A stretch of 64,000 bases of DNA, taken from positions 10,751,425 to 10,815,424 of the forward strand of contig CP092869.1 in assembly GCA_030710605.1 (NCBI GenBank), written 5' to 3'. The notes below the pieces were generated by a model, which was given only the letters and a program-made list of their open reading frames with translations, did not search any database and was not told the DNA's origin. The DNA is from Cordylochernes scorpioides. Lineage: Eukaryota; Arthropoda; Arachnida; Pseudoscorpiones; Chernetidae. This document shows positions 2,572 to 63,400 of this stretch, piece after piece; the stretch's first letter is position 1; each line of letters opens with the position of its first letter. A program made the translations under genes and the position numbers.

Positions 2572-5500
2572 TCAGCCGAGAAAGGTCTCTCCTCTGTAGG
2601 AGAGGTAGAGGAATTGGTCATCAGACTTGTACATCTGTACACATTTTCCACATAGTCAATAAAATGATTTATGGTCTTGGTCACAAGTGAAAATGTATAT
2701 AAGGTTTTCCCAAAAGTTAGTGTTTTTCTTATTATACTTGGCGAATAACATCATTACGGCGAATAGATAATAATACATATAACAATTACTTTATACATTA
2801 TACAAGACATTATACATAACGGAAAATAATATTGGTATTCCTCTTTTTGCAAGTGTTTACGAACTTTTGGGACAACCTTGTAAAAAAAGGTTATCAACAC
2901 ACACAATGTATCGTTTAAGTTTCTTCTGGAAATTCCGCAATAGTTATACTTCTCAAAGAATTCACATTTTACCGATTAAAACTTATGGAAAAACAAGGAC
3001 GTTTCATATTTTGATGTCCCTGGTCATCTATTTTTTTTAAGGAGACAGGTAATTTGTTTCACATTTGGTTATCTCGTGTGTCTACAAAAAATATCAATGT
3101 GTACCAAATATATTTCAGAGTTATTGTCTGAATACCGAAACATTCTCAAAGGTACAACTTCTTTAGGTTTTGTCCATGAGTATATATTGATGCATATTTC
3201 GCTAGATGAAACAACTCTTTGGTCTCTTGAAAGATTTCACCATTCGCGTAATTATGGTCATACATCATAATTGAGATGATACAATCGAAACTACCATGTA
3301 CCAACGAATTCTATTGTTCATGGCTTTCATGCGAGGAGATTTACAAATTTTCAAAACTTCATTTTGAGGTACTTAAACTTCCCGAAATGACCTGACGGTC
3401 TCTAGACAGTATATGTTTCTCTGTGTTTTATCAAACAGGGACAATTTAGATATCCTTTTAAGTTAAGAAAATATATATGTACCAGATTATTTGTCAGTCT
3501 CACCTATGGCGGAAATTTTCAAGAATAATCAAAAATAAATGTGTTGATGCATTTAGATTGTTCTCATGACGCTAACATTTTCCATTGCAGAATAAGATCA
3601 ATTATCTAGTATAACGTTTAAAATTCAATGTGGACCTCTGGTGTTGAAAATATACGTTTATTGTTTGCATTATCTTCAAAGATTAATGCTTTTTATTATT
3701 ATTTATTAAACATCAAGGCCCGATATCGATGTATTTGCTCCTATTATAAAGAAAACAAACAAAACAAATAAATTAAAACATATACACTGCGTGACATTGA
3801 AAATGGAACACCAAGAAATAGTGGCCTGAAAATTATGCAAATTTCAGGGTAGTCGCGCCTAACCGAGTTATGTAAATGATGTAAAATGCGCAGCTCTCGT
3901 GCGCACATGGAGTAAGATATAAGGAAAGGAACTTGCAGAAAGGACAGTATTCGTGTCGTTATTTCTTCAAGGAAAATTATGTAGAAATTTTGTTCTTGTG
4001 TCAAAAGACACGTGTAATAACAGAGAATGCCAGGTCATCGTAAACGGAGGCAGTTCAAGCAGACAGACGCTTTTACGAGGGGCATGGTGATCGGACTGAA
4101 AAGGGCAGGTTGGTCCATACGTCAAATCGCAGCTGATACACACCTTGGTGCGTCCACGGTGCACCGACTGTGGAGAAGATGGTTGGAACAAGGAAATGTG
4201 GCAATTTATAGGAATGCCGGTGCAACCAGAGTGACGTCAGCACGTGTGGATCGGCGTATCCTTCGACAAGCAGTGGCGGCCCCACAAGCCACTTGTACCG
4301 CCATCCTGCAACATGTGCAAGACACCCTAGATCATTCCATCTTGACCAGAACCATTTCCCGTCGATTGGTTGCTAATGGCTTGCACTCATGCCGTCCGCT
4401 AAGAAGACTGCCATTGACCCCACCGAATAGGCGCCAACGTTTGGAATGGTGCCGGGCTAGATCGACGTGGATGACGGAATGGCACAGGGTCGTGTTCTCA
4501 GATGAGTCGCGTTTCTGCTTGTCCAGTGATAGTCGCCGTGTACGCGTGTGGCGTCGACGTGGAGAAAGGTCCAATCCGGCAGCAATTGTGGAACGCCCCA
4601 CCGTGCGACAGCGTGGACTCATGGTTTGGGATGCAATCGCGTATGATTCCAGGTCACCTTTACTTCGTATTCAGGGCACTATGACGGCCCAACGATACGT
4701 TGATGATGTGCTGCGACCGGTGACACTCCCCTACCTTCAGGGGGTACCCGATGCCCTTTATCAGCAGGATAACGCCCGACCGCACACTGCTCGCATTAGC
4801 CAACAATCTCTGCAAGATGTACAGATGCTTCCCTGGCCACCGTACTCTCCTGATCTCTCACCAATCGAGCACGTCTGGGACATCATTGGACGCCGTTTGC
4901 ATGCCTTGCCACAGCCGCGTTCAGAAGACGAACTGTGGCAAATGGTTGAGAGGGAAAGGAGAGCCATCCCTCAGGACGCCATCCGTACTCTGATTGACTC
5001 TCTACCTAGACGTGTTGCTGCGTGCATCGCCGTCCGCGGTGGTCCTACTTGCTACTAAGCCGACGCCGTTCTCGCTCTGTATTATGACTATCATTTTGAA
5101 ATAAAGATCACTTATTGTTCGTCCCTTGCTCTCTCTGTCTGCCGAGTTTCATCACTTTCTGGCCACTATTTCTTGGTGTTCCATTTTCAATGTCACGCAG
5201 TGTATATCGAAACAATGTGATTATATCAAAATACGAAACTATTTTAGACGCGTATGATTCTTTTAAAAATAAAACAATTTCTACAGCCCTTTGTGCAATG
5301 GAAAATTTAATGGGAGGGCCTGGCTCATATATATATAGGATTATATATTTACATATTTACATGTATTAATCGAAACAGAGTTTGAAGGATTTATATAAAT
5401 AAAGTGGTTGAGAGAGAGAGATGTAAGAGAGAATAATGCTTAGTAATTCTTGCAATATCCTTCACATGTGCGATGAGCTGATGCTCTAATCACTACACAA

Positions 5501-8500
5501 TGATTGAAGAGGTCAGAATTGAAACAGAGAAGCATGTAGCTGTTATAAACCAGTAGCTGTACTGTAGATAGATGGATAGATGTAGACTATTATACCTTTA
5601 TTAGGGACTTGCCCCATACAGTTCTCCAAATTGGGTAAGGTAATAATCATCTTGTGTTGTTTACATAGAAATTGAACTGGCTTTACTCTTCGTCTCAAAG
5701 TCATTCACTTGTTGACTGGTCCTTACATAATGATTATCTAAAATATTTATAGTAAGCTATTGCCTTCAGATTTGTTTGCTGATATTTTTGATAGCAATAC
5801 GTAGGGTGAAGTGTTGGTACATTTAATTTGTTGATATAGGGCCTTCCTATCTACATCAAGGGCTGTAAAATTAAGCAGGTTGTGGAGCATTTAGGTTGAT
5901 TTAAAAGTAGAAATATATTTTAGGCTTTATTTATTTAAATGGCTTTTATTATATTACACCGTATCAGATACAAGCTTAAGAATTACAAGTTAACAATCGA
6001 GTTATATGATGATAAATTATATGTTATAATATATACAATATTTCGCAAAATAATAATCTGTGGATTAAATATTATTATATTAATATATTATATACAATAT
6101 TATATTATATAATTAAAATATAAATATACGACACAGGTAATGGGGGAGTTCTTCAGTAATTTCATTGTCACACAGTGTACACATTAAGTTGATTTAGACT
6201 AATATGGACAAACCTGATAGGCAGTTCCCATGTCGGTGTTTCCAGAAAGAGCAATGTTGCCGTCAGCCAGCAGGTAGATGGTATCTGTCGGCTTGAGAAC
6301 GATCCTCTTCCGTAGAAAGCTGTAGACCAGATGGCAGGGAGCATCCGTAGAAAACAGGTATTTGTGTCGTTGAAGATCGGGTAGCGTAGACCTCGGATGT
6401 TTCTCTATGATTACCTGGCGACACAGAGCTTTTAGTGAAATCCATCATACCAAGAACATAGTAAATAGATTTGTGTGTATTTAGGATTATAAATTATCAC
6501 TGAATACAACATTTAGTATCAACATAGATTACTTTGAGGAACATAATACATTTCTCTAAAAATCACTACTATTTTTATAATCCATCCAAAAATAGAAATT
6601 GCCGATGTCTCCTAAATACACTTCCCTCAACGGCGACTTCCTCATCTAACCTAAAATTCTTTCTTGCTAGTCATTTCGGCTACTTCTTCTTCTTCTTTCT
6701 TATCTCCACTAAATCATATTAGGGTATCAAGCTTTGACAACCATCATGACTGGGTGAAGTAGAATGCGTCTGCCTTTGTCATTAAGACTGGGAGCACTTC
6801 TCAGTGGCAGGCCGACTTAGCTCCAAAAGAAATGGCTGCCTCTGACATGAGGAACAGACGCCATGTACAGCCGCTCCTAACAATGGAGTACAAACGCTGC
6901 TCATCCTGTATCCCTGTATTAGGGGCCCTTACAGGGTACTATCAGCCGGGCCAGCTGAGCCCAGGTTTTTTAGTGAGCTTGTTACTGCTCCCCCTCCTCC
7001 TTTTTCATCCGGGCTTGGGACCGGCAAAGGCGGAGTTATCTCGGCTACGATCTCTTGATATTGATATCTGTTGCTAGCTTTAAATGTTTGAATCAAACAT
7101 TTTCTCGATTTTTAAAGATAATATTGAATTATTCAATACTTTTTGCTTTTATTCTTTCTCTAGCTTTTTGTATATTTTCCTACTACTCTCTCATGTTCTA
7201 ATACCTATATGGGTTGATGTAAATTGTAGGAATGCCAGTAGAATATGCTCATATCTTTGAATATAAAAAAATCAGAAAAACATATGGCAGAATAATTTTG
7301 AAATAGATTAACTTTAACGTAATAAAAATATATCTATTTATTTAATTCAATTTTAGATAATAAAAAAAACATATATTGGATTTTTAAAAAATATTTATTT
7401 TGCCAATATTTCGGCTGGCTGAACGCCAAACCTTTATCAAGGCATTACATTTTTGTATACACAAACTCAGCGCCGCATTAATTCAATATAAAGTGCTATG
7501 TCCCCCTAGGGACACTTGCGCTGTCATACATGTATACCTTTACATTTGACTATACATATTTATTTACAATAATTTTAGGCTGTGAAGAATATTCATATTA
7601 TCAATACATAACAATAACGCGCCGTCTATATAATACAAATGAAAACACCAAACGCAAATATTTCTTTTCACAAATAAATCAAACTTCTTGCAATGCTTGA
7701 TGCAAATATTTAAATATAATTCTACTGTCCTAAAAGCTTATGTCCATAGTTTGCTTAAATACCACTTCTGATAATTAAATCTTCAGTGTAGAATATAAAA
7801 GTCTTCTTCTTCTTCTTTCTTATCTCCACTCAATCATATTAAGGTATCAAGCTTGTAAAGCCTGAGAGACCATCATGATTGTGTGAAGTAAAATGATTCT
7901 GCCTTTGTCATTAAGACTGGGAGCACTACTCAGTTGCAGGCCGACTTAGCTCCAAAATAAATGGCCACCTCTGACATGAGGAACAGACGCCATGTGCAGC
8001 CGCTCCTAACATGGAGTACAAACGCTGCTCATCCTGTATCCCAGGATTAGGAGCCCTTACAGGGTACTATCAGCTGGGCCAGCTGAACCCAGGTTTTTTA
8101 GTGAGCTTGTTACTGCTACCCCTCCTCCTTTTTCATCCGGGCTTGGGACCGGCAAAGGCGGAGTTGCATATAAAAGTAGAATGATCCAATACAGTATTAG
8201 AGCTCTGAAGAAGCAGTCTGGTGGATTAAATTGGCGAAACCTATGGGAGTGTTCACCACTAATGAGGTAAGCCCTCTCAATTAATTTTTTCATCACAGTA
8301 AGGGCAGTAGAGGTTATATAATTGTCATATTATATTAACAAGGAGAAGGTATTACCTTATCATATAATTGGAATTTCCTTTTGATAATTCAGTTGTACAA
8401 TCACAGAAAATTCATTTTTCCTAATTTGACTACCTGAATCCAGTACACAATTTCACATTAGCACTTTTCAAATTCAAAGCTCAGATTTTAATGTTCTCCT

Positions 8501-10981
8501 ACAATATTTAATTGTTTTTAGCTCAAATAACTTTCAAATATACTTTTTATAATACAATATATTGCGGTTTATAATTGTAGAACGGCATTTGAAAATTATC
8601 CCACATGTGTTTCTTTTGAACTAAAAATCGAAATGTATTTTAAGGAGAAATAACGCATCCCATTCCCATCTCTGGACACTTTTATTTTCCGTTCATCATT
8701 ACTCTTCACAATTCATCCTTTCATACTTCATCCCTAATGTTAGAAATAATCGTTATTTCTTCTTTAAAAATATTTCGATTTTTCTTTCAAAAGAAACACA
8801 TGAGGGATATTTTTCAAATGTCATTCTACAAATATACTTTTTATTGTCCCAAAAGAGGTAACTCTCTCGTAATATATGAATACGCTAGATGGCACTATTG
8901 CATCTCTCTTGAAAAGTTTTTTTTTATTAGGATGATGTAATAGTGCCTAAGTTCGAATGCACAATTAAAGGAACAGTTACTTCTTTCCGTCCGCCGCTAC
9001 GGTAACCGTGAACAGGGAACTCTGAAATATGGCTGACAAACGGGGCAATGGCCTTTCAATGGATTGGACAAGACACCACCACAGCATTTGCTTCTGCCCA
9101 GAAGTTCTCCTCTACGCGGGGAGAAGCAGCACAAGTAAGGGACTGCCCTGTAGTACGGTGTCGTGAGCCGCTACGGTAACCGTGAACAGGGAACTCTGAA
9201 ATGTGGCTGACTAACGGGGCAATGGCACCTTTCCTTTCCATGGATGGACAAGACACTACCACCTCTTTTGGTACATGTATATCATCCTCCAGAAACCTTT
9301 TTATTTTTTATTTTTAAAGTGACTCCAAACGTTTCATAACCTTGTATGTTAAGCTATGTTTTGTTTTGTAGCCATGAGTCAACCCAGCCAAAGGAAATCC
9401 TTGGAAGATAAATCTATAATTAAACTAACAAAGACTTCAGGTGCCTACAAAGTGGATCAATAAATTCTGGGTCGCTTCGATTTAGAAAGAACTTGGTTGT
9501 TATTGGTCATCTGATTTTTTATTCTATACAATACGATACTTGAAGTATTATGGATTTATCGTAAAGATAGAGGCTGCCTGGCCGGCATTCATATTCATAT
9601 GAAAAATAGACACTTCGGCCAGTTAGAGTTATTTATTTTTCTCAACTTTTCGACAAAAATCTTTTATCTTCGTCAGGAGGAGTAAATAAAAATAAATCAT
9701 TTGGAAAGGGGCGTTAAAAATTGTTCACTCTTTTTAACACCTTGCCAAATGCTTTATTTTTATTTACTTCTCCTGACGATGGTAAAATATTTTTGTCGAA
9801 ACGTTGAGAAAATAAAAAACTCCAACTGGCCAAGGTGTCTATTTTTCATAGAAATATTTTGGATTTGTTATTGTAACATGCTTTGTATTTATTTATGTAA
9901 AATATTTAATTATTCTTTGATTTTTCTTCATAGTTAGGCAGTCGGCGATACTGTACTTTCTTTCCTTCTCTAATATCGCATAAGTTTTTTTGTTCTGTTT
10001 ATTAATTATGGTTAACCTTGTTGTAATATATTTACGAAATTTTGGGACAACCTTGTAATTCTGAAAATTGGCCCACCTGTTGAATGGCCAACCTTGATAT
10101 AGAAAATCAGAGATTAAATCATTTTTCTATTTAAGAATCTATATATATAAAAATGAATGTATGTGTGTGTGTGTGGTCTGTTTGTCCTTTATGCCTGACC
10201 AAACCACTCATTGGAACGCCATGAAACTTTGGGAAGTTATTTAGTATAGTACTGGGAAGGTTTCTAGCAAATACAATTTTTGAAATAACTTTTCGCTTTA
10301 AAATAATCAAGATAAATATTCTAATTTATCTGTTATAATTCAACAATCTGCTCTAAATATTATCATGATGATACGATGATTTTGTAATGTAGAAAATTAG
10401 GAAAGACAAAATTCAGGATGACACGGCAATTTATTTGAGACAAGAATAATGATACAATTCCAAGGCAAGATACTATTCCTTTAACTTCCAATTACCGAGG
10501 GAACCAATTAATATTCATTTTATTCAACTTTTCGAGTATTTTTCAAGGGACCGGGAAAAAATGTTCACTTTATCGAGAGATTCGTTAGACAAACCTTTAC
10601 TCGGGTAAAACCCGGGCGAAGCCGGGTACGTCCGCTAGTAATGTTATAATTTTACAAAGGTTACCAATATTATCAAGGTTGTCCCTGAAGTTTGTAAACA
10701 CTTTCAAAATATAAATCAAAATATGTTTACGAACTTTTGGGACAATCTTGTATTAGGTCAAATTTTCATAATATACAGTGTGTGAAGATCTAGAATAGGT
10801 TCTAGTATTTTAAAAGTAGCATATATTTACGTACTGGAACTTTGTCTGGATGTCTGATGAGCATTTTGACGGCTTCAGCATAGCGGTTCTCGAAGGCTGA
10901 TTCTTTGTATTTGAAGGTGACTGGGGCTGCACTCACTATACCTGGATTAGCAGAGTCCCAGTTGCCATGTTTCAGACACAT
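2572..10981 (-). CDS. Gene A: divergent Atg8/LC3-like protein with C-terminal glycine
   Basis: Predicted three-exon gene on the minus strand: 10835-10981, 6214-6414, 2572-2634 (136 aa). Exon 1 carries a ~22-residue N-terminal extension, then FKYKESAFENRY...HPDKVP, the Atg8 helical region. Exon 2 starts VIIEKHP and holds KYLFSTD, FLRKRIVLKP and GTAYQ, matching the ubiquitin-like core. Exon 3 is MYKSDDQFLYLSY...ETFLG-stop and resembles the LC3 end. Junctions are GTACGT donor / CAG acceptor and GTTTGT donor / CAG acceptor, both phase 0. The start ATG follows an in-frame TAA 24 bases upstream, although an upstream exon is possible. Known Atg8 proteins are conjugated through this glycine to phosphatidylethanolamine on autophagic membranes. 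Here glycine is already terminal, so ATG4 trimming would not be needed. Introns of 4.4 and 3.6 kb are full of transposons. Expression is unproven. Confidence 0.8.
2699..2882. mobile_element. MITE with AAGGTTGTCCCAAAAGTT termini
   Basis: Short element whose ends, TATAAGGTTTTCCCAAAAGTT and its inverted partner AACTTTTGGGACAACCTTGTA, face each other. TA at the termini suggests a Tc1/mariner-derived MITE. Related ends recur near 10030, 10675, 13062 and 24383-24716. It lies in gene A intron 2. Confidence 0.6.
2883..3782. other. Gene A intron 2 sequence
   Basis: AT-rich. Around 3100-3190 there is a degenerate copy of the 76 bp unit seen as an array at 31706-32166. Nothing else was recognised. Confidence 0.5.
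3783..5204 (+). mobile_element. Apparently intact Tc1-like transposon
   Basis: 1422 bp element flanked by TA duplications (3781-3782, 5205-5206). Its first and last 44 bases are perfect inverted repeats starting TACACTGCGTGACATTG. It encloses one uninterrupted transposase gene and lies in gene A intron 2, antisense to it. Identical termini and an open ORF imply a recent insertion. Confidence 0.9.
4027..5058 (+). CDS. Tc1-like transposase, full length
   Basis: The 343-residue protein is the cut-and-paste transposase of the enclosing element. Residues ~15-60 are a helix-turn-helix DNA-binding region (GWSIRQIAADTHLGASTVHR), followed by a second basic binding domain. The catalytic triad can be read as D159 (VFSDESRF), D248 (YQQDNARPHTA) and E281 (SPDLSPIEHVWD). 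By my count 32 residues separate the last two, against 34 in classical Tc1. The length is normal for the superfamily and there are no internal stops. The ATG at 4027 is 244 bases inside the left terminus. Likely functional, but not shown. Confidence 0.92.
   Translation: MPGHRKRRQFKQTDAFTRGMVIGLKRAGWSIRQIAADTHLGASTVHRLWRRWLEQGNVAIYRNAGATRVTSARVDRRILRQAVAAPQATCTAILQHVQDTLDHSILTRTISRRLVANGLHSCRPLRRLPLTPPNRRQRLEWCRARSTWMTEWHRVVFSDESRFCLSSDSRRVRVWRRRGERSNPAAIVERPTVRQRGLMVWDAIAYDSRSPLLRIQGTMTAQRYVDDVLRPVTLPYLQGVPDALYQQDNARPHTARISQQSLQDVQMLPWPPYSPDLSPIEHVWDIIGRRLHALPQPRSEDELWQMVERERRAIPQDAIRTLIDSLPRRVAACIAVRGGPTCY
5591..6180 (-). mobile_element. LINE 3' fragment, split by a solo LTR
   Basis: The reverse complement matches 41990-42376, with the same C-terminal knuckle region (CTLCD...ITEELPHYL) and 3' end. 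The coding part is decayed. Bases 5881-6133 are an insertion absent from the 42 kb copy. It lies in gene A intron 2, in gene orientation. Confidence 0.7.
5881..6133. mobile_element. Putative solo LTR (253 bp)
   Basis: It begins TGTGG, ends ACGACA, and is flanked by the 5 bp direct repeat CAGGT (5876-5880, 6134-6138). The 42 kb LINE relative has CAGGT once and lacks this segment. TG...CA ends with a 5 bp duplication are LTR-retrotransposon hallmarks. The internal region was probably lost by LTR-LTR recombination. Confidence 0.65.
6683..7037 (-). repeat. Family A repeat, copy 2
   Basis: Near full length, with the CTT-rich tail side at 6683 and the conserved GGCAAAGGCGGAGTT end at 7037. It lies in gene A intron 1. 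Confidence 0.75.
7038..7801. other. Gene A intron 1 sequence with Penelope-like end
   Basis: 7385-7450 reads on the minus strand as GATAAAGGTTTGGCG...CCGAAATATTGGC, the type of 3' terminus seen on Penelope-like elements. Bases 7490-7545 share a stretch with 24025-24065. Otherwise AT-rich. Confidence 0.35.
7802..8167 (-). repeat. Family A repeat, copy 3, with target duplication
   Basis: This copy interrupts a family F MITE and is flanked by the direct repeat ATATAAAAGT. The uninterrupted F sequence near 19710-19730 shows the empty site. A ~10 bp duplication plus a GAA-type tail supports retrotransposition. Confidence 0.75.
8578..8825. repeat. Foldback (family T) without tRNA core
   Basis: Inverted arms around CATTTGAAAATTATCCCACATG and AAGGAGAAATAACG. 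This is the same foldback family that elsewhere carries a tRNA-like core (11264, 12939, 22866, 57675); only a trace of the core is left here. Confidence 0.6.
8994..9265. repeat. ~90 bp direct duplication
   Basis: The block CCGCTACGGTAACCGTGAAC... occurs at 8994-9080 and again at 9169-9265, with unrelated sequence between. Moderately GC-rich. No open frame spans both copies. Confidence 0.6.
9555..9850. repeat. Foldback with Penelope-like termini
   Basis: Inverted arms contain TTTTGTCGAAACGTTGAGAAAATAAA and its complement around 9630-9690 and 9770-9830, with CCTGACGA hinges. Such sequence resembles Penelope-like 3' ends. The flank CGTAAAGATAGAGGCTGCC recurs at 13840-13872, next to the first gap. 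Confidence 0.5.
10138..10638 (+). mobile_element. Non-autonomous Helitron-like element
   Basis: It starts TC after A at 10138 and ends CTAG before T at 10638, the rule for Helitron insertion between A and T. Just inside the 3' end is the hairpin AAACCCGGGCGAAGCCGGGT. The 5' end TCTATATATATAAAAATGAATG is shared with elements at 25661 and 58665. No Rep/helicase ORF. Confidence 0.75.
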
Positions 10982-11114: not shown

Positions 11115-11345
11115 GAACAATGTTTAACAATTTTGCCGCAAATGTTTCTTTTGAATGAAAAATCGTAATTTATTTTAAGGAGAAATAACGACTATTTCTA
11201 TCCTTAGGGATGAATTATGAGAGGATGAATTGTAAAGAGTAATGATAAACAGAAAAATAAAGTGTCCAGGGATGGGAAACGAACTCACAGTGTTCCGCTT
11301 ACCGGGCAGATGCCATGTCCACTAGGCTACCCTGGACATCGGATA
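11115..11345. repeat. Family T foldback carrying a tRNA-like core
   Basis: The left arm (from about 11115) has the AAGGAGAAATAACG block found in the 8578, 12805, 22690, 56640 and 57518 copies. The tRNA-like core is at 11264-11336. Confidence 0.6.
11264..11336 (-). tRNA. tRNA-like sequence, Thr(GGT)-type, probably pseudo
   Basis: Folds as a 73-nt tRNA: acceptor TCCAGGG/CCCTGGA, U8-A9, D arm GCC/GGC, anticodon loop CCGGTAA with GGT at the anticodon. The T-loop here is altered (GAGTTCGTTTCCC) and position 33 is C rather than T, so function is doubtful. It is part of a dispersed element. Confidence 0.45.
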
Positions 11346-12804: not shown

Positions 12805-13040
12805 TTATAAACGACATTTGAAGTTACACCGCGTGAGTTTCTTTTTAATGAAAATTCAAAATTTATTTCAAGGAGATATTTTGGATGAGGTATGAGAAGG
12901 TGAATTATGAAGAGTAATGATAAACGGAAAATAAAAGTGTCCAGGGATGGGAATCGAACCCACAATGTTCCGCTTACCGGGCAGATGCCATGTCCACTAG
13001 GCTACCCTGGACATATTTTAGTTCAAATTTACAATTGGAG
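12805..13040. repeat. Family T foldback with tRNA-like core
   Basis: The left arm ACGACATTTGAAGTTACACC...GGAGATATT and the tRNA-like core at 12939-13011 are present. The right arm is truncated. Confidence 0.6.
12939..13011 (-). tRNA. tRNA-like sequence, Thr(GGT)-type
   Basis: A complete 73-nt cloverleaf can be drawn: 7 bp acceptor (TCCAGGG/CCCTGGA), D arm with AGTGG, anticodon stem TCTGC/GCGGA, loop CCGGTAA, T arm GTGGG-TTCGATT. Both internal promoter boxes look usable. C33 is unusual. It is embedded in a multicopy foldback. Confidence 0.5.
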
Positions 13041-32591: not shown

Positions 32592-34435
32592 CGCCGACCG
32601 TGCGGCCACGCGTCGCGCGAGCTCCGCGTATTTCGCCTCTCATTCTACTGACTGCCCTTGTTACTCAACTTCAATCATACCATCGGACTCGCCGTAAGAC
32701 AGGCTTCATCTTGAGCCACATTTAAAGTCATTTCATCAAGTTTGAAATTTTCATCGATTCAATTTTCATAGGTTTGTAAATCTACAAGTTGTAGATTTAC
32801 AGCATCACCATGGCGACAGCCGGGCCGGCTGCTGCGTCACCATCGTCATCACTCACCTCATTTGCTGGTCGAAAATCACAATTTACATCCTCATCTTCGC
32901 AACTACAAACTGAAAAATCTACATATTTAACGCAAGCAGGAGATCTACATGCAAAAATCACTGCCCAAAGACCAATCTTTTCTCAAGAAGAACTCAGAAA
33001 ATTCGATCAAGACAGAAAGGCGACGTATGAAAGGAGAAGTTCAACGACAAAATCTACGATACAATTCGTCTCGCTTCCGGACTGTACTGCGGAAGAACAC
33101 CTAGACGGAATCGCCAAAGTCATAGGCCGACCCAGCATCCACTCCATCGGTAAGATTAATGGTCAAGCCATAGTCTCTTTGGCCGGGGTTGAACAGGCAG
33201 AAATGCTGATCAACACTGGCTTTCAAGTCAAAGACAAAACAATATATCCCTACCCGCTCTTTAACATCCCGAAAAAATACATCTTATCCGGGGTAATGCT
33301 GTTCATACAAGATGAAGACATTGTGAGAACCCTACAGCCTTATGGACAGGTGTTGAGCGTCCGACCCCTCCCCTTCCCCACCGACAATCCTCTATACAAG
33401 CACCTCTCCTCTTTGAGGAGAGAGATCATCTTCAAAAAGAAGGAAGACACTGCCATGCCAGCTATCATCACCATCGACTACATGGGCAACAACTTTAAAA
33501 TATTTATTGCCGAAGATGTCATTTGCGTGGGCTGCAAACGACATGGCCATATCAGAGCCAAATGTCCTTTCGACCCCCGGATCAGGGAAACAGTAACAAG
33601 ATCCTTTGCAGATGCCCTGAGTCCGACTGCACAGCCACGAACCCCTACCCCCGAACAACCTCCAATGGAGAAGAGCATCCCCACAGAAAAAGGAAACATG
33701 ACCTCCGTGAAAGGGAGAAATCATACGTCGAACCCGGACGAAGAAACAAAACCAGTCCCCCCTGGTGGAGGAACAGCCACTCACCCGTGTTCTGAATCGA
33801 GGACCGACGCAGGAACCGAAGATTCTGACGAAGACACATCAGCCAGGTGCTCACAGTGGTCGATGGACTCCTCTCAACTCCAGAGGGAGTTGATAGACTG
33901 CGAGCACAGAGACAACCCTAAAATGGAAAGGATCATCGCGTTGGTATTCAAAAGGGCAGGTGTTTCTAGACAGACCAAGGTCTGTCAACAGCTTGAACTG
34001 CACCCCGACCTGAAGTATAGGACCTCCTGCTACCTCAAGAAATGTGAAGATTATAAGTCAAAAAACTTCAGAGACCTCAATACCGACCAAAAAAGAGCAC
34101 TCAACGACAAAATAGGAAAATTGAGGCTAATTCAAACGGAGATCGACAAGTATGATGCAGTATACGATGCAATCCTCGATGCAAAATATCCGACGAAGAA
34201 GAGACCGCTTAATGAGTCTCAGCATGACAACTCTGACCAACAAGAAGACAGGAACCTAGATAAAAAACCCAAGCCCACTCCCCTAGAAGTGAAGACAACC
34301 CCTCCGCCATATATAGAAATGGAAATAGACGGAAAGACTACAACAGCTAGATCGACTCCTTCTTGATACCCCTTCCCCTCTGACTGCTGACTGTATTTGC
34401 CTCTTTTAACTGAATAAAGACCGTTTTTTCGCGTT
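32592..34435 (+). mobile_element. Gag-only (ORF1-only) retroelement in a TA tract
   Basis: A GC-rich start (ACGCCGACCGTGCGG), one gag-like ORF and a 3' end with AATAAA at 34413-34418 and CGTTTTTTCGCG, bounded on both sides by (TA)n. There is no reverse transcriptase, LTR or poly(A) tail. It is best read as a non-autonomous LINE relative inserted in a TA microsatellite; a retrocopy of an ORF1 gene is the alternative. Confidence 0.6.
32810..34366 (+). CDS. Gag-like protein with one CCHC zinc knuckle
   Basis: 518 codons, uninterrupted, ATG in ideal context (CACCATGG). Residues 1-80 are Ser/Thr-rich. About 82-235 look like the RRM-type nucleic-acid-binding fold of LINE ORF1/gag proteins (IQFVSLPDCTAEEHLDGIAK; later IDYMGNNFKIFIAEDV). 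A CCHC knuckle follows: C239, C242, H247, C252. Residues ~255-350 are disordered and P/T/E-rich. About 360-460 is a helical, charged domain I do not recognise, then a basic tail. In LINEs such proteins coat the RNA. No pol ORF follows: only ~70 bases separate the stop from the element end. GC content and codon use differ from the AT-rich flanks. The open frame implies a recent copy. Confidence 0.75.
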   Translation: MATAGPAAASPSSSLTSFAGRKSQFTSSSSQLQTEKSTYLTQAGDLHAKITAQRPIFSQEELRKFDQDRKATYERRSSTTKSTIQFVSLPDCTAEEHLDGIAKVIGRPSIHSIGKINGQAIVSLAGVEQAEMLINTGFQVKDKTIYPYPLFNIPKKYILSGVMLFIQDEDIVRTLQPYGQVLSVRPLPFPTDNPLYKHLSSLRREIIFKKKEDTAMPAIITIDYMGNNFKIFIAEDVICVGCKRHGHIRAKCPFDPRIRETVTRSFADALSPTAQPRTPTPEQPPMEKSIPTEKGNMTSVKGRNHTSNPDEETKPVPPGGGTATHPCSESRTDAGTEDSDEDTSARCSQWSMDSSQLQRELIDCEHRDNPKMERIIALVFKRAGVSRQTKVCQQLELHPDLKYRTSCYLKKCEDYKSKNFRDLNTDQKRALNDKIGKLRLIQTEIDKYDAVYDAILDAKYPTKKRPLNESQHDNSDQQEDRNLDKKPKPTPLEVKTTPPPYIEMEIDGKTTTARSTPS

Positions 34436-49291: not shown

Positions 49292-52200
49292 ATGAACTTC
49301 AAATTCAAAGAAACTCCATTTGAAGAACGCCAAGCATTCACCACCAAAGTACTACAGAAGTACCCTCATATGATGCCTGTAAGTACGGCTGTGATATATA
49401 TACCCCTTCACCATTATATATATGTGAATTTTGACGGGATAAAATTGTTCTAACAAAGACAAGCTATTATATATAGTAGTAGGTTGGTATAAGTTAGTAA
49501 TCATCATAATCATCAGCGACAGTATTCTACCTAGAAAACGTTGGGTCAAGTACATAGAATGCCTCAGTTTGCCAAAGCTGGTATTATGGCTTTGTCACCT
49601 ATCCGATGCCACTAGTTTGCGGCGACGGTCAATAGATGGCGACTAGTTTTGACGTTTAATTTGACAGGAGAGGAGCCCTATGATTATAAATATATGTAGT
49701 CGATTCAAGAAGGGTTGACGGAGGACGAGTTAAGCCGACGTGGAGTGAACGAACCGAGAAGAAGGAGTTTCAATGGGAGAATCTCACATTCTCTTGGAAA
49801 AAAAGAGAGGAAGAGATTGATATGGATATTTATTACATCGTTCACATAAGATTATGTCTGCGCTCACATGAGTCCATTGCCTGGCGTGTGCTCTGGCAGA
49901 TGTGGCAGGTAAGGGAGGTCCCTGACCCCCGCAGGACGACGGCTTTCCGCCTCGCGCTCCGCCCGATAAATAAAGCTGGCGTATTCCTGCAGTAGACGCT
50001 GGCAAAAGGACCACAGGTGCCGCGCGTTCAGGAGCACAGTAGCTTCGAGCCCGGGAGCCAATAGGTCTCGCAGCCGCAATAACAAGATGTCGCCTCGAAA
50101 ACGTAGGGATCTCAGGTTGACGAGGTGGCAAATCCGTTGGTCTAGCTCAAAGATGCTAAACACGTCCTCCCAGAGACACAACATTCTCTTCCTCGGGTAC
50201 AGACCAGCCAAGAGTATCAGTTGGTGGCCCCACGCAGTGAAGCCTGAACCCCCTTAAGGCGGGTGAGCTGAAGCTGTCCCACAATTCCCAGCAGCCAGAT
50301 ACTCCCTCGGAGACCGGCCGCTTCGCGATACCTCCAGAAAGTGGCAAAGCATGGTTCGATCTCCATTTACGAAACCACCAGCCGAGCTTTTAGCTGGCCG
50401 ATGGTGGTGTGCCGTGGAGATGGTGCATGATGGATCCAAGAACCAGGTTGTTGGCCGTGCTATCCCGACCCACTTCGAGATGGCTCGCTCTAGCAGCCTT
50501 ATTAAGTAAATTGACCGGGAGATGTTCCTGATAGAGATTGTGAAGTGCAGAACAGCGAGCCACTCAGAAAGCCAGAAGATCACCATTAAAAAGTCTATCC
50601 AACGATTTGTGAAACCACCCCAAAGGCTGTAACTTTTGTCCAGGTTGACAGACAGCCCGGATTCCATGTAGAATTATTCGAAAAAGAGAAAGCGGAGTCG
50701 GGTTATCTGAGCGATGTTGACATCCGCTCATGGCCTCGTGTATGCAGCGTCTAGTCAAATTGTCCGGTCAAAATTAGTTTGTTCGGTCTATTTGGAGGCG
50801 ACAGTAGAGCCTGGCGTCTCAGTTCTACGGGCTTCTCTGTCAATGGGTTTCTGACCTCTAAATAAAATGTATACCCTGACTGTGTATGTGGATTTCCTTC
50901 TCTGCCTCAACATTTTTTTAGATTTTTATTTTCTGCAGAGCTACATTTGTATGGCAATTTAGAATATGAAATGTATTACATAGAGATAAAATGTAGGTGC
51001 GTATTACTCATTAACTTTCCCTGGTTCCCAAAAACAAAGATCAGATTCTAAATCACATCTTGTTTTATGTTTTCAGATATTGGTCGAGAAACATCCCTGC
51101 TCAAAACTTCCCACTATGAACTCAAGCAAGCTCACGCTTCCCGACAACTTAAAATTCGGTAACTTGGTTTCCCATATCTGGAGTCGGTTGAAGCTGAAGG
51201 CACCTATCGACTCTGTGGAATTCAAGGTGAACGGCAACGTACCCATCCTGAGTCAGGAGAGCATAAAGGCTGTGTATCAGGTACCTAATTTCACTCAAAA
51301 CTTGTTATATAATGCACATGTTAGTAAGTAGTAGTCCCTGATTATGTTTGGAAGCTTCATTGAATTTGTAAAAATTCATTATCAATTTCATATAAGGATT
51401 TAGCGCTCAATTTGTGCATGAACTATCTGTACAGGAACTGCATAGCCGTAAGAATATACATAAAATACCATCCTCCCGCAACTTTGTATTGTAATCTGGC
51501 TTAAAATCGGCTTTGCCACTTCACCAGCTCAAACACCTTTTATAAAACAGATAATTTAAAGAGAAACTAAGTGTATATAATACAATATCCATAAAATAAA
51601 AGGATTTAAGCACGAATCTTTTATACACAATTCAAATTTCTACTGTTTTTACTGCGGTCAAAAAATATATTGGGAGGGCTTGGTTCATCAGTGGTGAACC
51701 CTTCCAACGGTTTCATCAATTTAATCTACCAGACCGCTTCTCAGAGCTCTAATACTGTATTGGATCATTCTGCCTATATATGCAGTACTGAAGGGTGGAT
51801 TCTCAGAAATGGTTTTCAAGAGAACTATGGACATAAGCTTATAGGACAGTAGAATTACACATATTATAATATGTGGAAAAACAATTTTTAAAAATATATA
51901 TAGGTCAAGTGTTGATATTAAAAACAAAAGAGACATATCCTGTCCAGGCTTTGGGTTGGCCAAATATCACGAAGCAAGTTAAATGAACGTTTAGTTTATT
52001 TTTGCTCTACTAGATGGCGCTCTGTTATCTATAAAAGCTCATGTGAGCCTGGTCAGGATATGCCTCTTTTGTTTTAAATATTATAATATATTGTTGCACT
52101 GGGCTGCGGTTTGGCAGATTCTTCAATCTTGATTCTCTCCTCAGACGTGTTTTGCATCTTTCCAGAATGTGTCTCAACCATCCTACAAGGTTAAACCAGT

Positions 52201-52670
52201 CAATAATAAGACATCTATATTTTTAGGTAGCACCTAGATATCTCTTTATTTATCACATCAAAGTTTAAAGCAGGTTGGGTATTTAGTGTATCAAAATACA
52301 AATGTTTTATAGTACATAATATTTATAGTAATAATCTGTTTTATAAAATAAATAAATGTATAATTTAAATTTTAAATATATTAAAAATAATATTATAAAT
52401 AATTTTTAAAATACGCGCATTAATCATGATGCAACAATATAATGCATAGATTTCAGCGTATATTTTTAAAAGACAATAAACAAAGTGTTGCAATATTAAT
52501 TCTGATCCTTGTGTGTCCAGAGGTACAAAGATGAGGATGGCTATCTGTATATATCTTACCAGGAAACAAATTTACCCAATTGGACAAGTTCAACAAATAT
52601 TATTAAATTGTCTATCCTTACTATTGTAATTGGACTTACCACCACCTTTCTTTTCCAATACTTCGTCTAA
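49292..52670 (+). CDS. Gene B: Atg8/LC3-like protein with a predicted C-terminal membrane anchor
   Basis: Three exons, 49292-49378, 51077-51280 and 52521-52670, give 146 aa. Donors GTAAGT and GTACCT, acceptors TTTTCAG and GTGTCCAG; both introns are phase 0 and sit where gene A has them. Residues 1-29 (FKETPFEERQAF...KYPHMMP) match the Atg8 N-terminal helices. Residues 30-97 (ILVEKHP...SKLTLP...VNGNVP...AVYQ) match the ubiquitin-like core, and 98-110 (RYKDEDGYLYISY) the last strand as in LC3. Instead of ETFG the protein runs QETNLPNWTSSTN, then residues 124-146, with no charged residue from 127 to the end. There is no C-terminal glycine. The inference is a tail-anchored Atg8 that would not need ATG4, ATG7 or ATG3. 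The start ATG is preceded by a possible acceptor, so a 5' UTR exon is likely. Confidence 0.78.
49558..49685. repeat. MITE family G fragment
   Basis: CAGTTTGCCAAAGCTGG...GGCGACGGTCAATAGATGG, in gene B intron 1. Confidence 0.6.
49784..50876 (-). pseudogene. LINE polymerase fragment in gene B intron 1
   Basis: The minus strand reads ESGLSVNLDKSYSLWGG (post-palm RT region) and continues in shifted frames to about 49784. GC-rich against its flanks. The YxDD palm and endonuclease are not visible. The same fragment is in the inverted copy at 63475-64000, so it predates the duplication. Confidence 0.5.
51600..51870. repeat. MITE family F
   Basis: CCAACGGTTTCATC...CAGACCGCTTCTCAGAG...GGACAGTAGAATTAC, in gene B intron 2. 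Confidence 0.6.
51925..52080. mobile_element. Family H element with inverted termini
   Basis: AAACAAAAGAGACATATCC and GGATATGCCTCTTTTGTTTT face each other, with the AGATGGCGCTCTG core. In gene B intron 2. Confidence 0.65.
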
Positions 52671-52747
52671 AAGAGAGAATCTGTTTGTGTATTGATATCA
52701 ATACATTATTCAATATAAAGTTTACATGAGACATATATAGGTAGAAA

Positions 52748-57517: not shown

Positions 57518-57765
57518 ATTATAAAACGACATTTGAAAATTATCCCGCATGTGTTTCTTTTAAACGAAAAATCGAAATTTATTTTTAAGGAGAAATAACG
57601 ATTATTTCTAACCTTAGGGATGAATTATGAAAGGATGAATTGTGAGGAGTAATGATAAACGGAAAAATAAAAGTGTCCAGAGATGGGAATCGAACCCACA
57701 GTGTTCCGCTTACCAGGCAGATGCCATGTCCACTAGGCTACCCTGGACATATTTTTCCGTTCGTA
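57518..57765. repeat. Family T element, right arm lost
   Basis: The left arm ACGACATTTGAAAATTATCC and the tRNA-like core are complete. It stops at ATATTTTTCCGTTCG. Confidence 0.65.
57675..57747 (-). tRNA. tRNA-like sequence, Thr(GGT)-type, best copy
   Basis: 73-nt cloverleaf with U8-A9, AGTGG D loop, anticodon loop CTGGTAA (T33 present, anticodon GGT), and T arm GTGGG-TTCGATT-CCCAT. The acceptor has one G-T pair. Both pol III boxes are intact. It is part of a repeat, so function is uncertain. Confidence 0.55.
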
Positions 57766-58702: not shown

Positions 58703-58773
58703 TGCATCGGCTGGGAATCGAACTCTGGCCGCCCGCGTAGCAGGCGAGCATTCTACCACTGAACCACCGATGC
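58703..58773 (-). tRNA. tRNA-Gly-like, mutated anticodon (GCT)
   Basis: 71-nt tRNA-Gly frame (GCATCGG/CCGATGC acceptor, GGTTCAGTGG A box), but the anticodon loop reads CTGCTAC and the T stem has mismatches. Likely a pseudogene of the neighbour. Confidence 0.6.
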
Positions 58774-59049: not shown

Positions 59050-59120
59050 TGCATCGGCCGGGAATCGAACCCTGGCCGCCCGCGTGGCAGGCGAGCATTC
59101 TACCACTGAACCACCGATGC
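59050..59120 (-). tRNA. tRNA-Gly(GCC)
   Basis: 71 nt including discriminator A. Acceptor GCATCGG/CCGATGC, A box TGGTTCAGTGG, anticodon loop CTGCCAC (GCC), B box GGTTCGATTCC. A run of eight T follows the 3' end on the minus strand, a pol III terminator. It matches the eukaryotic tRNA-Gly pattern closely, so it may be functional although it lies in a duplicated repeat. Confidence 0.8.
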
Positions 59121-60485: not shown

Positions 60486-63400
60486 TAGGGTGACGAGATT
60501 ATATCTATTCTGATAGCTTCTTAGAGCATCTATTTAATTTATGTTCATACCTGAACTGTTTCAAAAAAGATGGGTTGCGACCAAATAAACATTTTGGGAT
60601 ATCAAGTATATCAAGAGGGCATTAGACATGATTATGACTAAATAAAATTGATCGCCGAAGTCGAATAATTTACAATAAAGAAGCTTTTTAGGTTTATCAT
60701 CTTATTATCGGCGATATTGGCTGAAGAGCAATGCTGATTTTTTGCGACCATTCTTAACGATTTTTCCCAAAGGGCTGAGGAGAAATAATTTTGAATATAA
60801 ATGTTTTTAAAAATAGCGCTTACAATTTATTTATAATTTTTCAATGCAACTAGTATATTGATGCAATTGAGGAGAGAACTTCAGGAATTGGTTTAACCAT
60901 GGAGATATGCATCACCACTAAATATTTATAATCCCTAAAATATACAAATTATTCCGTCTATTGGGGGGTTTATTTGCTTGGGATTTTAAATGACCCATGT
61001 TTTAAACTAAAAGTTTAGCTACCTAAATAAGAAATACTTTGCATATTACGGTGTTTAAACTTTTAATCGTTACTGCAACCCGGCATACTCTTATGTAAGT
61101 TTAATCCAAGTACCTCAAATTTTTATGAAACCTATGCTGAATATAAATGGAATATGCAAATTATAATATGATCGAAATAGTTTGCATATTTTGAGTTCAA
61201 ATTTATAACAGTAACTTCTAATTGATCTATCTCTTTGGAGTCAAAATCTCATTCAGATAGGTCAAATATTGTGGAAACGCATGGAGAACAAACACACACA
61301 CTCAAACACAAAAGATATTCAAAAATATTTATTTTTGGTTATACGGATGTATATTTATTACAAGTATTAATCAACAACAACAACAAAAAGCCTTTATTTA
61401 GGGTCACTGACCCTATACAGGATTCACCAGAGGTATGCATAAGAACAAAGCAGTGAGACAAAGGAAACAACGATATAGATAGAAGAAAAAGAAAAAAAAA
61501 AAAGAAAAAAAAACAAGAAAGAGGGAAGCAAGAAAAACAACACAAAAAGAGTAGCAGTTACAAGTATTAATCAATATATGTTTATTTTTCTACCTATATA
61601 TGTCTCATGTAAACTTTATATTGAATAATGTATTGATATCAATACACAAACAGATTCTCTCTTTTAGACGAGGTATTGGAAAAGAAAGGTGGTGGTAAGT
61701 CCAATTACAATAGTAAGGATAGACAATTTAATAATATTTGTTGAACTTGTCCAATTGGGTAAATTGGTTTCCTGGTAAGATATATACAGATAGCCATCCT
61801 CATCTTTGTACCTCTGGACACACAAGAATCAGAATTATCATTGCAACACTTTGTTTATTGTCTTTTAAAAATATACGCTGAAATCTATGCATTATATTGT
61901 TGCATCATGATTAATGCGCGTATTTAAAAAATTATTTATAATATTATTTTTAATATATTTAAAATTTAAATTATACATTTATTTATTTTATAAAACAGAT
62001 TATTACTATAAAATATTATGTACTATAAAACATTTGTATTTTGATACACAAAATACCCCACCTGCTTTAAACTTTGATGTGATAAATAAAGAGATATCTA
62101 GGTGCTACCTAAAAATATAGATGTCTTATTATTGACTGGTTTAACCTTGTAGGATGGTTGAGACACATTCTGGAAAGATGCAAAACACGTCTGAGGAGAG
62201 AATCAAGACTGAAGATTCTGCCAAACCGCAGCCCAAGGCAAAAATATATTTTAATATTTAAAACAAAAGAGGCATATCCTGACCAGGCTCACATGAGCTT
62301 TTATAGATAACAGAGCGCCATCTAGTAGAGCAAAAATAAACTAAACGTTCATTTAACTTGCTTCGTGATATTTGGCCAACCCAAAGCCTGGACAGGATAT
62401 GTCTCTTTTGTTTTTAATATCAACACTTGACCTATATATATATTTTAAAATTGTTTTTTTCACATATTATAATATCTATAAATAATAAATATTATAATAT
62501 GTGTAATTCTACTGTCCTATAAGCTTAGGTCCATAGTTTTCTTGAAAACCATTTCTAAGAATCCACCCTTCAGTACTGCATATATAGGCAGAATGGTCCA
62601 ATACAGTATTAGAGCTCTGAGAAGCGGTCTGGTAGATTAAATTGATGAAACCGTTGGAAGGGTTCACCACTGATGAACCAAGCCCTCCCAATATATTTTT
62701 TGACCGCAGTAAAAACAGCAGAAATTTGTATTGTGTATAAAAGATTCGTGCTTAAATCCTTTTATTTTATGGATATTGTATTATATACACTTAGTTTCTC
62801 TTTAAATTATCTGTTTTATAAAAGGTGTTTGAGCTGGTGAAGTGGCAAAGCCGATTTTAAGCCAGATTACAATACAAAGTTGCGGGAGGATGGTATTTTA
62901 TGTATATTCTTACGGCTATGCAGTTCCTGTACAGATAGTTCATGCACAAATTGAGCGCTAAATCCTAATATGAAATTGATAATGAATTTTTACAAATTCA
63001 ATGAAGCTTCCAAACATAATCAGGGACTACTACTTACTAACATGTGCATTATATAACAAGTTTTGAGTGAAATTAGGTACCTGATACACAGCCTTTATGC
63101 TCTCCTGACTCAGGATGGGTACGTTGCCGTTCACCTTGAATTCCACAGAGTCGATAGGTGCCTTCAGCTTCAACCGACTCCAGATATGGGAAATCAAGTT
63201 ACCGAATTTTAAGTTGTCGGGAAGCATGAGCTTGCTTGAGTTCATAGTGGGAAGTTTTGAGCAGGGATGTTTCTCGACCAATATCTGAAAACATAAAACA
63301 AGATGTGATTTAGAAGCTGATCTTTGTTTTTGGGAACCAGGGAAAGTTAATGAGTAATACGCACCTACATTTTATCTCTATGTAATACATTTCATATTCT

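Follow-up and report, generated by a model that had tools for sequence, protein, structure and literature searches.

A putative tail-anchored Atg8 paralogue in an Atg8-like gene cluster of the pseudoscorpion Cordylochernes scorpioides

Atg8 biology centres on the reversible conjugation of a C-terminal glycine, which raises the question of what an Atg8 gene without this glycine might encode. Such a gene, here called gene B, lies at positions 49292-52670 of the forward strand in a window of 64,000 nucleotides of Cordylochernes scorpioides (contig CP092869.1, here C7, 10751425-10815424; coordinates given without a contig or locus name refer to this window); the genome totals 2.62 Gb, divided among 24 contigs. 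We consider it moderately probable that gene B is an Atg8 paralogue in which reversible lipid conjugation has been exchanged for a C-terminal membrane anchor. In the following, the descent of the gene, its unusual end and its relatives are described before this reading is weighed against its alternatives.

Descent and C-terminus of gene B

Gene B consists of three exons on the plus strand. Exon 1 (49292..49378) starts with the ATG at 49292, reads MNFKFKETPFEERQAFTTKVLQKYPHMMP and is directly followed by the donor gtaagt. Exon 2 (51077..51280) encodes 68 residues of the ubiquitin-like core between an upstream acceptor ttttcag and a downstream donor gtacct, while exon 3 (52521..52670) contains the last beta strand YKDEDGYLYISY, a linker and the hydrophobic tail up to the stop TAA (52668-52670), with no glycine at the conjugation position. 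Both introns run from gt to ag with phase 0 junctions, and the spliced product has 146 residues. An earlier, sequence-only reading of this DNA had proposed the same three-exon model, and its coordinates proved exact and its splice sites proper. The Atg8 similarity that it had suspected was also recovered by profile: the spliced protein matches Pfam ATG8 (PF02991) at 2.9e-17 and 63.2 bits (cut-off 27) over profile positions 2-101 of 104, and residues 1-115 match the solved GABARAP structure 8x8u (8.6e-17). Moreover, exon boundaries and phases agree with those of a multi-exon GABARAP-like gene on contig C21, which is split after YPDRVP and after LYQ, both in phase 0. Because of this agreement gene B is not a retrocopy, and an intron artefact is ruled out on the same grounds. 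Judged by profile, structure match and exon boundaries, gene B is a member of the Atg8/LC3/GABARAP family by descent.

At the aligned place of the conjugated glycine, gene B has an asparagine, and since the glycine is missing, the known form of conjugation would be impossible for its product. The motif YISY is followed by 16 mostly polar residues QETNLPNWTSSTNIIK (111-126) and then by LSILTIVIGLTTTFLFQYFV (127-146), 20 uncharged, mostly hydrophobic residues that reach the stop. On the DNA level, the hydrophobic tail corresponds approximately to 52593..52667 (+), i.e. to about residues 122-146 with the uncharged run at 127-146. Both the lost glycine and the polar linker with its hydrophobic end had been noticed from the letters alone, and both are confirmed here by alignment and by hydropathy. 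The best 19-residue Kyte-Doolittle mean of gene B is 2.08 (residues 124-142), compared to 0.55-0.92 in the three tail-less sequences measured (an Atg8 of contig C13 and genes A and D of the cluster described below). By hydropathy alone, this maximum lies in the tail with no comparable stretch upstream, and the N-terminus reads MNFKFKETPFEER. With a hydrophobic segment within its last ~30 residues, gene B has the layout of a tail-anchored protein, though a borderline one on the Hessa sum.

Another last exon ending in glycine, to which exon 2 might be spliced instead, had been named as a possible objection. A five-sequence profile was compared with all open reading frames of at least 18 residues from the window and from six loci nearby, and found no alternative exon-3-like frame above threshold near gene B, with the limit that highly diverged exons could escape such a scan, as Pfam misses exon 2 of gene E. 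The best frame below threshold (52238-52309, inside intron 2, E 1.2) is devoid of the exon-3 motif and ends in NTNVL before its stop, not in glycine. An origin of the tail from a repeat was rejected, as a DNA search of 52555-52680 across the genome (very common words skipped) matched only gene B and its twin B'.

The Atg8-like cluster on C7 and related genes

Whole-genome protein searches, whose counts of Atg8-like exons are lower bounds, detected about ten Atg8-like loci of five types (A-E) on C7 between ~10.66 and 11.01 Mb (~350 kb), with exons grouped into genes by order and strand. The hydrophobic-tail design of gene B is seen again elsewhere in this cluster, both in its twin B' and in C1 and C2, which have diverged from B. 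The twin B' lies on the minus strand, with exon 1 just beyond the window (C7:10816452-10816538; L012:1452-1538), exon 2 at 63081..63284 and exon 3 at 61664..61813, the latter encoding the same tail with one change (F to L) and then a stop. Genes C1 and C2, both on the plus strand, possess a C-terminal segment more hydrophobic than that of B with a short polar end (Kyte-Doolittle 2.53 in C1), and B and C are only 39% identical over the whole alignment and 33% in exon 2.

The other types end differently. Genes A and A' (both minus strand) end in GETFLG; gene A is located inside the window with exon 1 at 10835..10981, exon 2 at 6214..6414 and exon 3 at 2572..2634, where GETFLG is followed by the stop and the terminal glycine is kept. 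A Tc1-like transposon resides in its second intron (~3785-5205), with an open reading frame at 4021-5058 (+) for an uninterrupted transposase of 345 residues (HTH_Tnp_Tc3_2 5.9e-17, DDE_3 6.2e-15) and terminal inverted repeats recognised by eye. Gene D (plus) and D' (minus) form another type. The last exon attributed to D closes with YQEGASSSANLSNSFK and lacks both a correctly placed glycine and a tail, and exon 3 of D' was not found in the whole-genome protein searches. The stop of the last D exon overlaps a donor-like sequence TTCAAGTAAG (L027:1570-1620), so that gene D might continue into an additional exon. Of genes E (plus) and E' (minus) only exon 2 was recognised; this exon is so diverged that Pfam returns no match, and the same searches did not find exons 1 and 3 of E. 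The spliced models of the remaining types match Pfam ATG8 at 7.1e-22 (A), 2.2e-17 (C) and 1.2e-17 (D). Two stray copies of exon 3 were also present, one D-like and one C-like with a frameshifted yet hydrophobic tail. Of the weak matches outside C7 and the known Atg8 places, five (one each on contigs C1, C9 and C15 and two on contig C2) were compared with the family profile; the best of them reached 11.7 bits (bias 3.7) and did not resemble Atg8.

Loss of the glycine is specific to types B, C and D among the last exons examined: the aligned residue is asparagine in B and C and serine in D, while glycine occupies the conjugation site in all eight last exons outside these types (two on C13, one each on C16, C11, C22 and C24, A and A'), a comparison that leaves out the C21 and C19 genes, whose last exons were not located. 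The two C13 copies (L001, L002) are intronless, ~37 kb apart in opposite orientation and end VYG-HLHSIYL, and the intronless C16 copy (L003) carries an internal deletion. Genes of LC3-like and GABARAP-like type coexist in the genome, LC3 being described as metazoan-specific in PMC7615515. Queries with two arthropod families, insect odorant receptor (PF02949) and arthropod hemocyanin (PF00372), returned no match, a result that does not demonstrate their absence. Further, ATG4-like sequence (PF03416) occurs at eight places on three contigs, and therefore nothing points to a loss of the lipidation pathway, as far as this search suggests, which covered ATG4 alone.

Nonsynonymous (dN) and synonymous (dS) divergence was estimated from Nei-Gojobori counts. 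Between types, dN/dS values were 0.575/1.59 for B-D, 0.685/2.02 for B-A (with the A row short of its last codon) and 0.604/saturated for B-C; within types they were 0.011/0.044 (C1-C2), 0.003/0.022 (A-A') and 0.009/0.017 (D-D', exons 1 and 2). The motif RYKDEDG is common to B and C, with four silent differences in its seven codons. Between the cluster types, silent sites have come close to saturation or gone beyond it, yet the proteins have diverged less. The coding sequences were therefore selected, and selection at the protein level acted over a large part of the history of these gene types, a conclusion that is drawn for the Atg8 core. A tree of 11 rows gave values of 88/93 for the canonical genes together with A and of 90/89 for the canonical genes alone, but lacked the support needed to resolve the branching of the cluster genes, having no starred branch, four rows less than half filled and E on a long branch.

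The chromosomal region itself is strongly symmetrical. The arms carrying B and B' belong to a large palindrome centred at ~57.1 kb of the window, extending from ~30.9 to 64 kb and continuing through the end of L013; it was traced for at least 26 kb on each side, as far as the DNA examined reaches, with a similarity between the arms of ~97% close to B and of 89-95% at greater distance. A second symmetry, computed from exon positions, relates D to D' and E to E' around 10.896 Mb of C7 (~10.843-10.957 Mb). The window also contains tRNA-like sequences for Thr (ggt; 11262-11337, 12937-13012 and 57673-57748), Ser (58703-58773) and Gly (59050-59120), which are tRNA genes or tRNA-derived repeats. In addition, an open frame of 523 codons (32795-34366, +) with the zinc-knuckle-like motif CVGCKRHGHIRAKC and no Pfam family below E 0.017 presumably encodes a retroelement Gag-like protein, by its resemblance to such proteins.

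Anchor, decay or regulator

If gene B encodes an anchored Atg8, its protein would be synthesised on cytosolic ribosomes and enter an endomembrane by its tail after translation, where it would stay permanently with the Atg8 domain on the cytosolic side. The anchored protein would be independent of ATG4, ATG7 and ATG3, with no release by ATG4, and the Atg8 surface that it offers to its partners would be a modified one; the C1 and C2 proteins would share the same architecture. By analogy with Drosophila Atg8b, one may guess at a function other than bulk autophagy, perhaps in the germline. Of the earlier claim that lipidation had been swapped for a tail anchor, the parts that have stood are the descent from Atg8, the loss of the glycine and the hydrophobic segment at the end of the protein, while the swap as such carries the moderate probability given at the outset.

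Several observations weigh against this reading. The tail of B is only moderately hydrophobic: when all frames that run for 36 residues or more up to a stop are considered, its Kyte-Doolittle value is reached by 29 of the 853 frames of the window and by 18 of the 832 frames of six further loci on C7, while the value of C1 is reached by 5 of the 853 window frames. On the Hessa scale, its best 19-residue sum of 0.22 is near zero, as opposed to -3.64 in C1. The exon 1 found for gene C possesses no in-frame ATG. The coding differences between B and B' comprise four nonsynonymous and one synonymous change (0.012/0.011), and recent constraint is not visible. Finally, although the exon-3 match between B and C spans the tail at ~45% identity, it scores 21.9 bits (residues 1-45), compared to 20.6 bits between B and the tail-less D (1-26), which does not establish that the tails of B and C share one ancestry.

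Some of these points might also be explained if B and its relatives were decaying duplicates in a palindromic, transposon-bearing region, in which the glycine was mutated away and readthrough reached hydrophobic sequence by chance. The B/B' substitutions and the frame counts fit such a decay, as do the stray exon-3 copies, one with a frameshifted tail, and the missing exons of D' and E. From the frame counts it follows that a single hydrophobic tail arising by chance would not be very surprising; for two diverged gene types to end in this way, on the other hand, is improbable, and the tail does recur in C1 and C2. Decay is also difficult to reconcile with the open frames, splice sites and Pfam ATG8 matches that A, B, C and D have kept in spite of silent sites near or past saturation. 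Moreover, the exons of B and B' differ at 5 of 441 positions without a single gap column, while the DNA outside them has 85 differences in 3469 positions and 85 gap columns. We regard decay as unlikely.

About equally unlikely is a gene B protein that is indeed anchored but, instead of serving as a scaffold for proteins with an LC3-interacting region (LIR), regulates from a fixed position either the enzymes of Atg8 conjugation or some unrelated partners, in the manner of the membrane-anchored ubiquitin-fold protein MUB, which acts on ubiquitin E2 enzymes. PMC4996978 terms MUB an early-acting regulator of E2 activation, which lends this alternative a precedent. Further support comes from the LIR docking site, for which the residues of the pockets HP1 and HP2 were taken from PMC7564214, transferred to GABARAP numbering and compared with the C13 Atg8 of this genome. 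Three of the 13 pocket positions have changed non-conservatively (E17F, L50T, L63H), and R28M, K46S and R65W are further changes at compared positions. Against a regulator of this kind, four pocket positions are unchanged (P30, K48, P52, I64) and the six other changes are fairly conservative (I21V, I32L, F104Y, Y49L, V51L, F60L). The docking site of gene B is, by this comparison of residues, partly kept and partly altered. Since it is altered, a "scaffold for LIR proteins" is a hypothesis, and partners other than the usual Atg8 ones are possible.

A soluble Atg8-fold protein, whose hydrophobic C-terminus is buried, removed or used as a degradation signal, is quite improbable: the borderline Hessa sum and gene D, which ends with neither glycine nor tail, speak in its favour, but 20 uncharged residues at the extreme end fit a tail anchor, and in C1 a strongly hydrophobic tail is closed by a short polar stretch.

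Returning to the anchored Atg8, the wider proposal is that of a fast-evolving Atg8 cluster in which three types dropped conjugation and two (B/B' and C1/C2) gained a transmembrane tail, which would make them a permanently membrane-bound, lipidation-independent class. We give this an even chance or slightly better.

Relation to known membrane-bound ubiquitin-fold proteins

A natural Atg8 that is permanently anchored would, if true, separate the action of Atg8 on the membrane from the route by which it gets there and provide a natural counterpart to lipidation-deficient mutants. The occurrence of glycine-ending, tail-less and tailed paralogues in one cluster suggests a route from a ubiquitin-like modifier to an ordinary membrane protein. 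Tail-anchored proteins carry a single hydrophobic segment at their extreme C-terminus, and gene B has this layout; we know of no tail-anchored protein with an Atg8 domain. Among the open-access titles and abstract openings surveyed, no description of a naturally transmembrane Atg8 was found.

Among anchored ubiquitin-fold proteins, MUB and UBL3 resemble the proposed gene B protein in fold and membrane attachment but are not known to be of Atg8 descent. According to PMC4996978, MUB is a membrane-anchored ubiquitin-fold protein that is prenylated and, unlike the proposed product of gene B, not transmembrane. Some plant clade II Atg8s have no residues beyond the glycine according to the Atg8 review PMC7615515; in this altered C-terminus they are similar to gene A, and in keeping the glycine they differ from B. 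Drosophila Atg8b is, like gene B, a duplicated Atg8 paralogue, and its role in the male germline is independent of lipidation. Unlike gene B, it is described as intronless and probably retrotransposed, acting in non-lipidated form, with no transmembrane tail mentioned in the same review (PMC7615515), from which the word "transmembrane" is absent. Compared to GABARAP/LC3 (PF02991), finally, gene B shares the ubiquitin-like core with its N-terminal extension, the exon boundaries and the similarity to Pfam and PDB entries, and differs in its missing conjugation glycine, its hydrophobic C-terminal tail and its altered LIR docking site.
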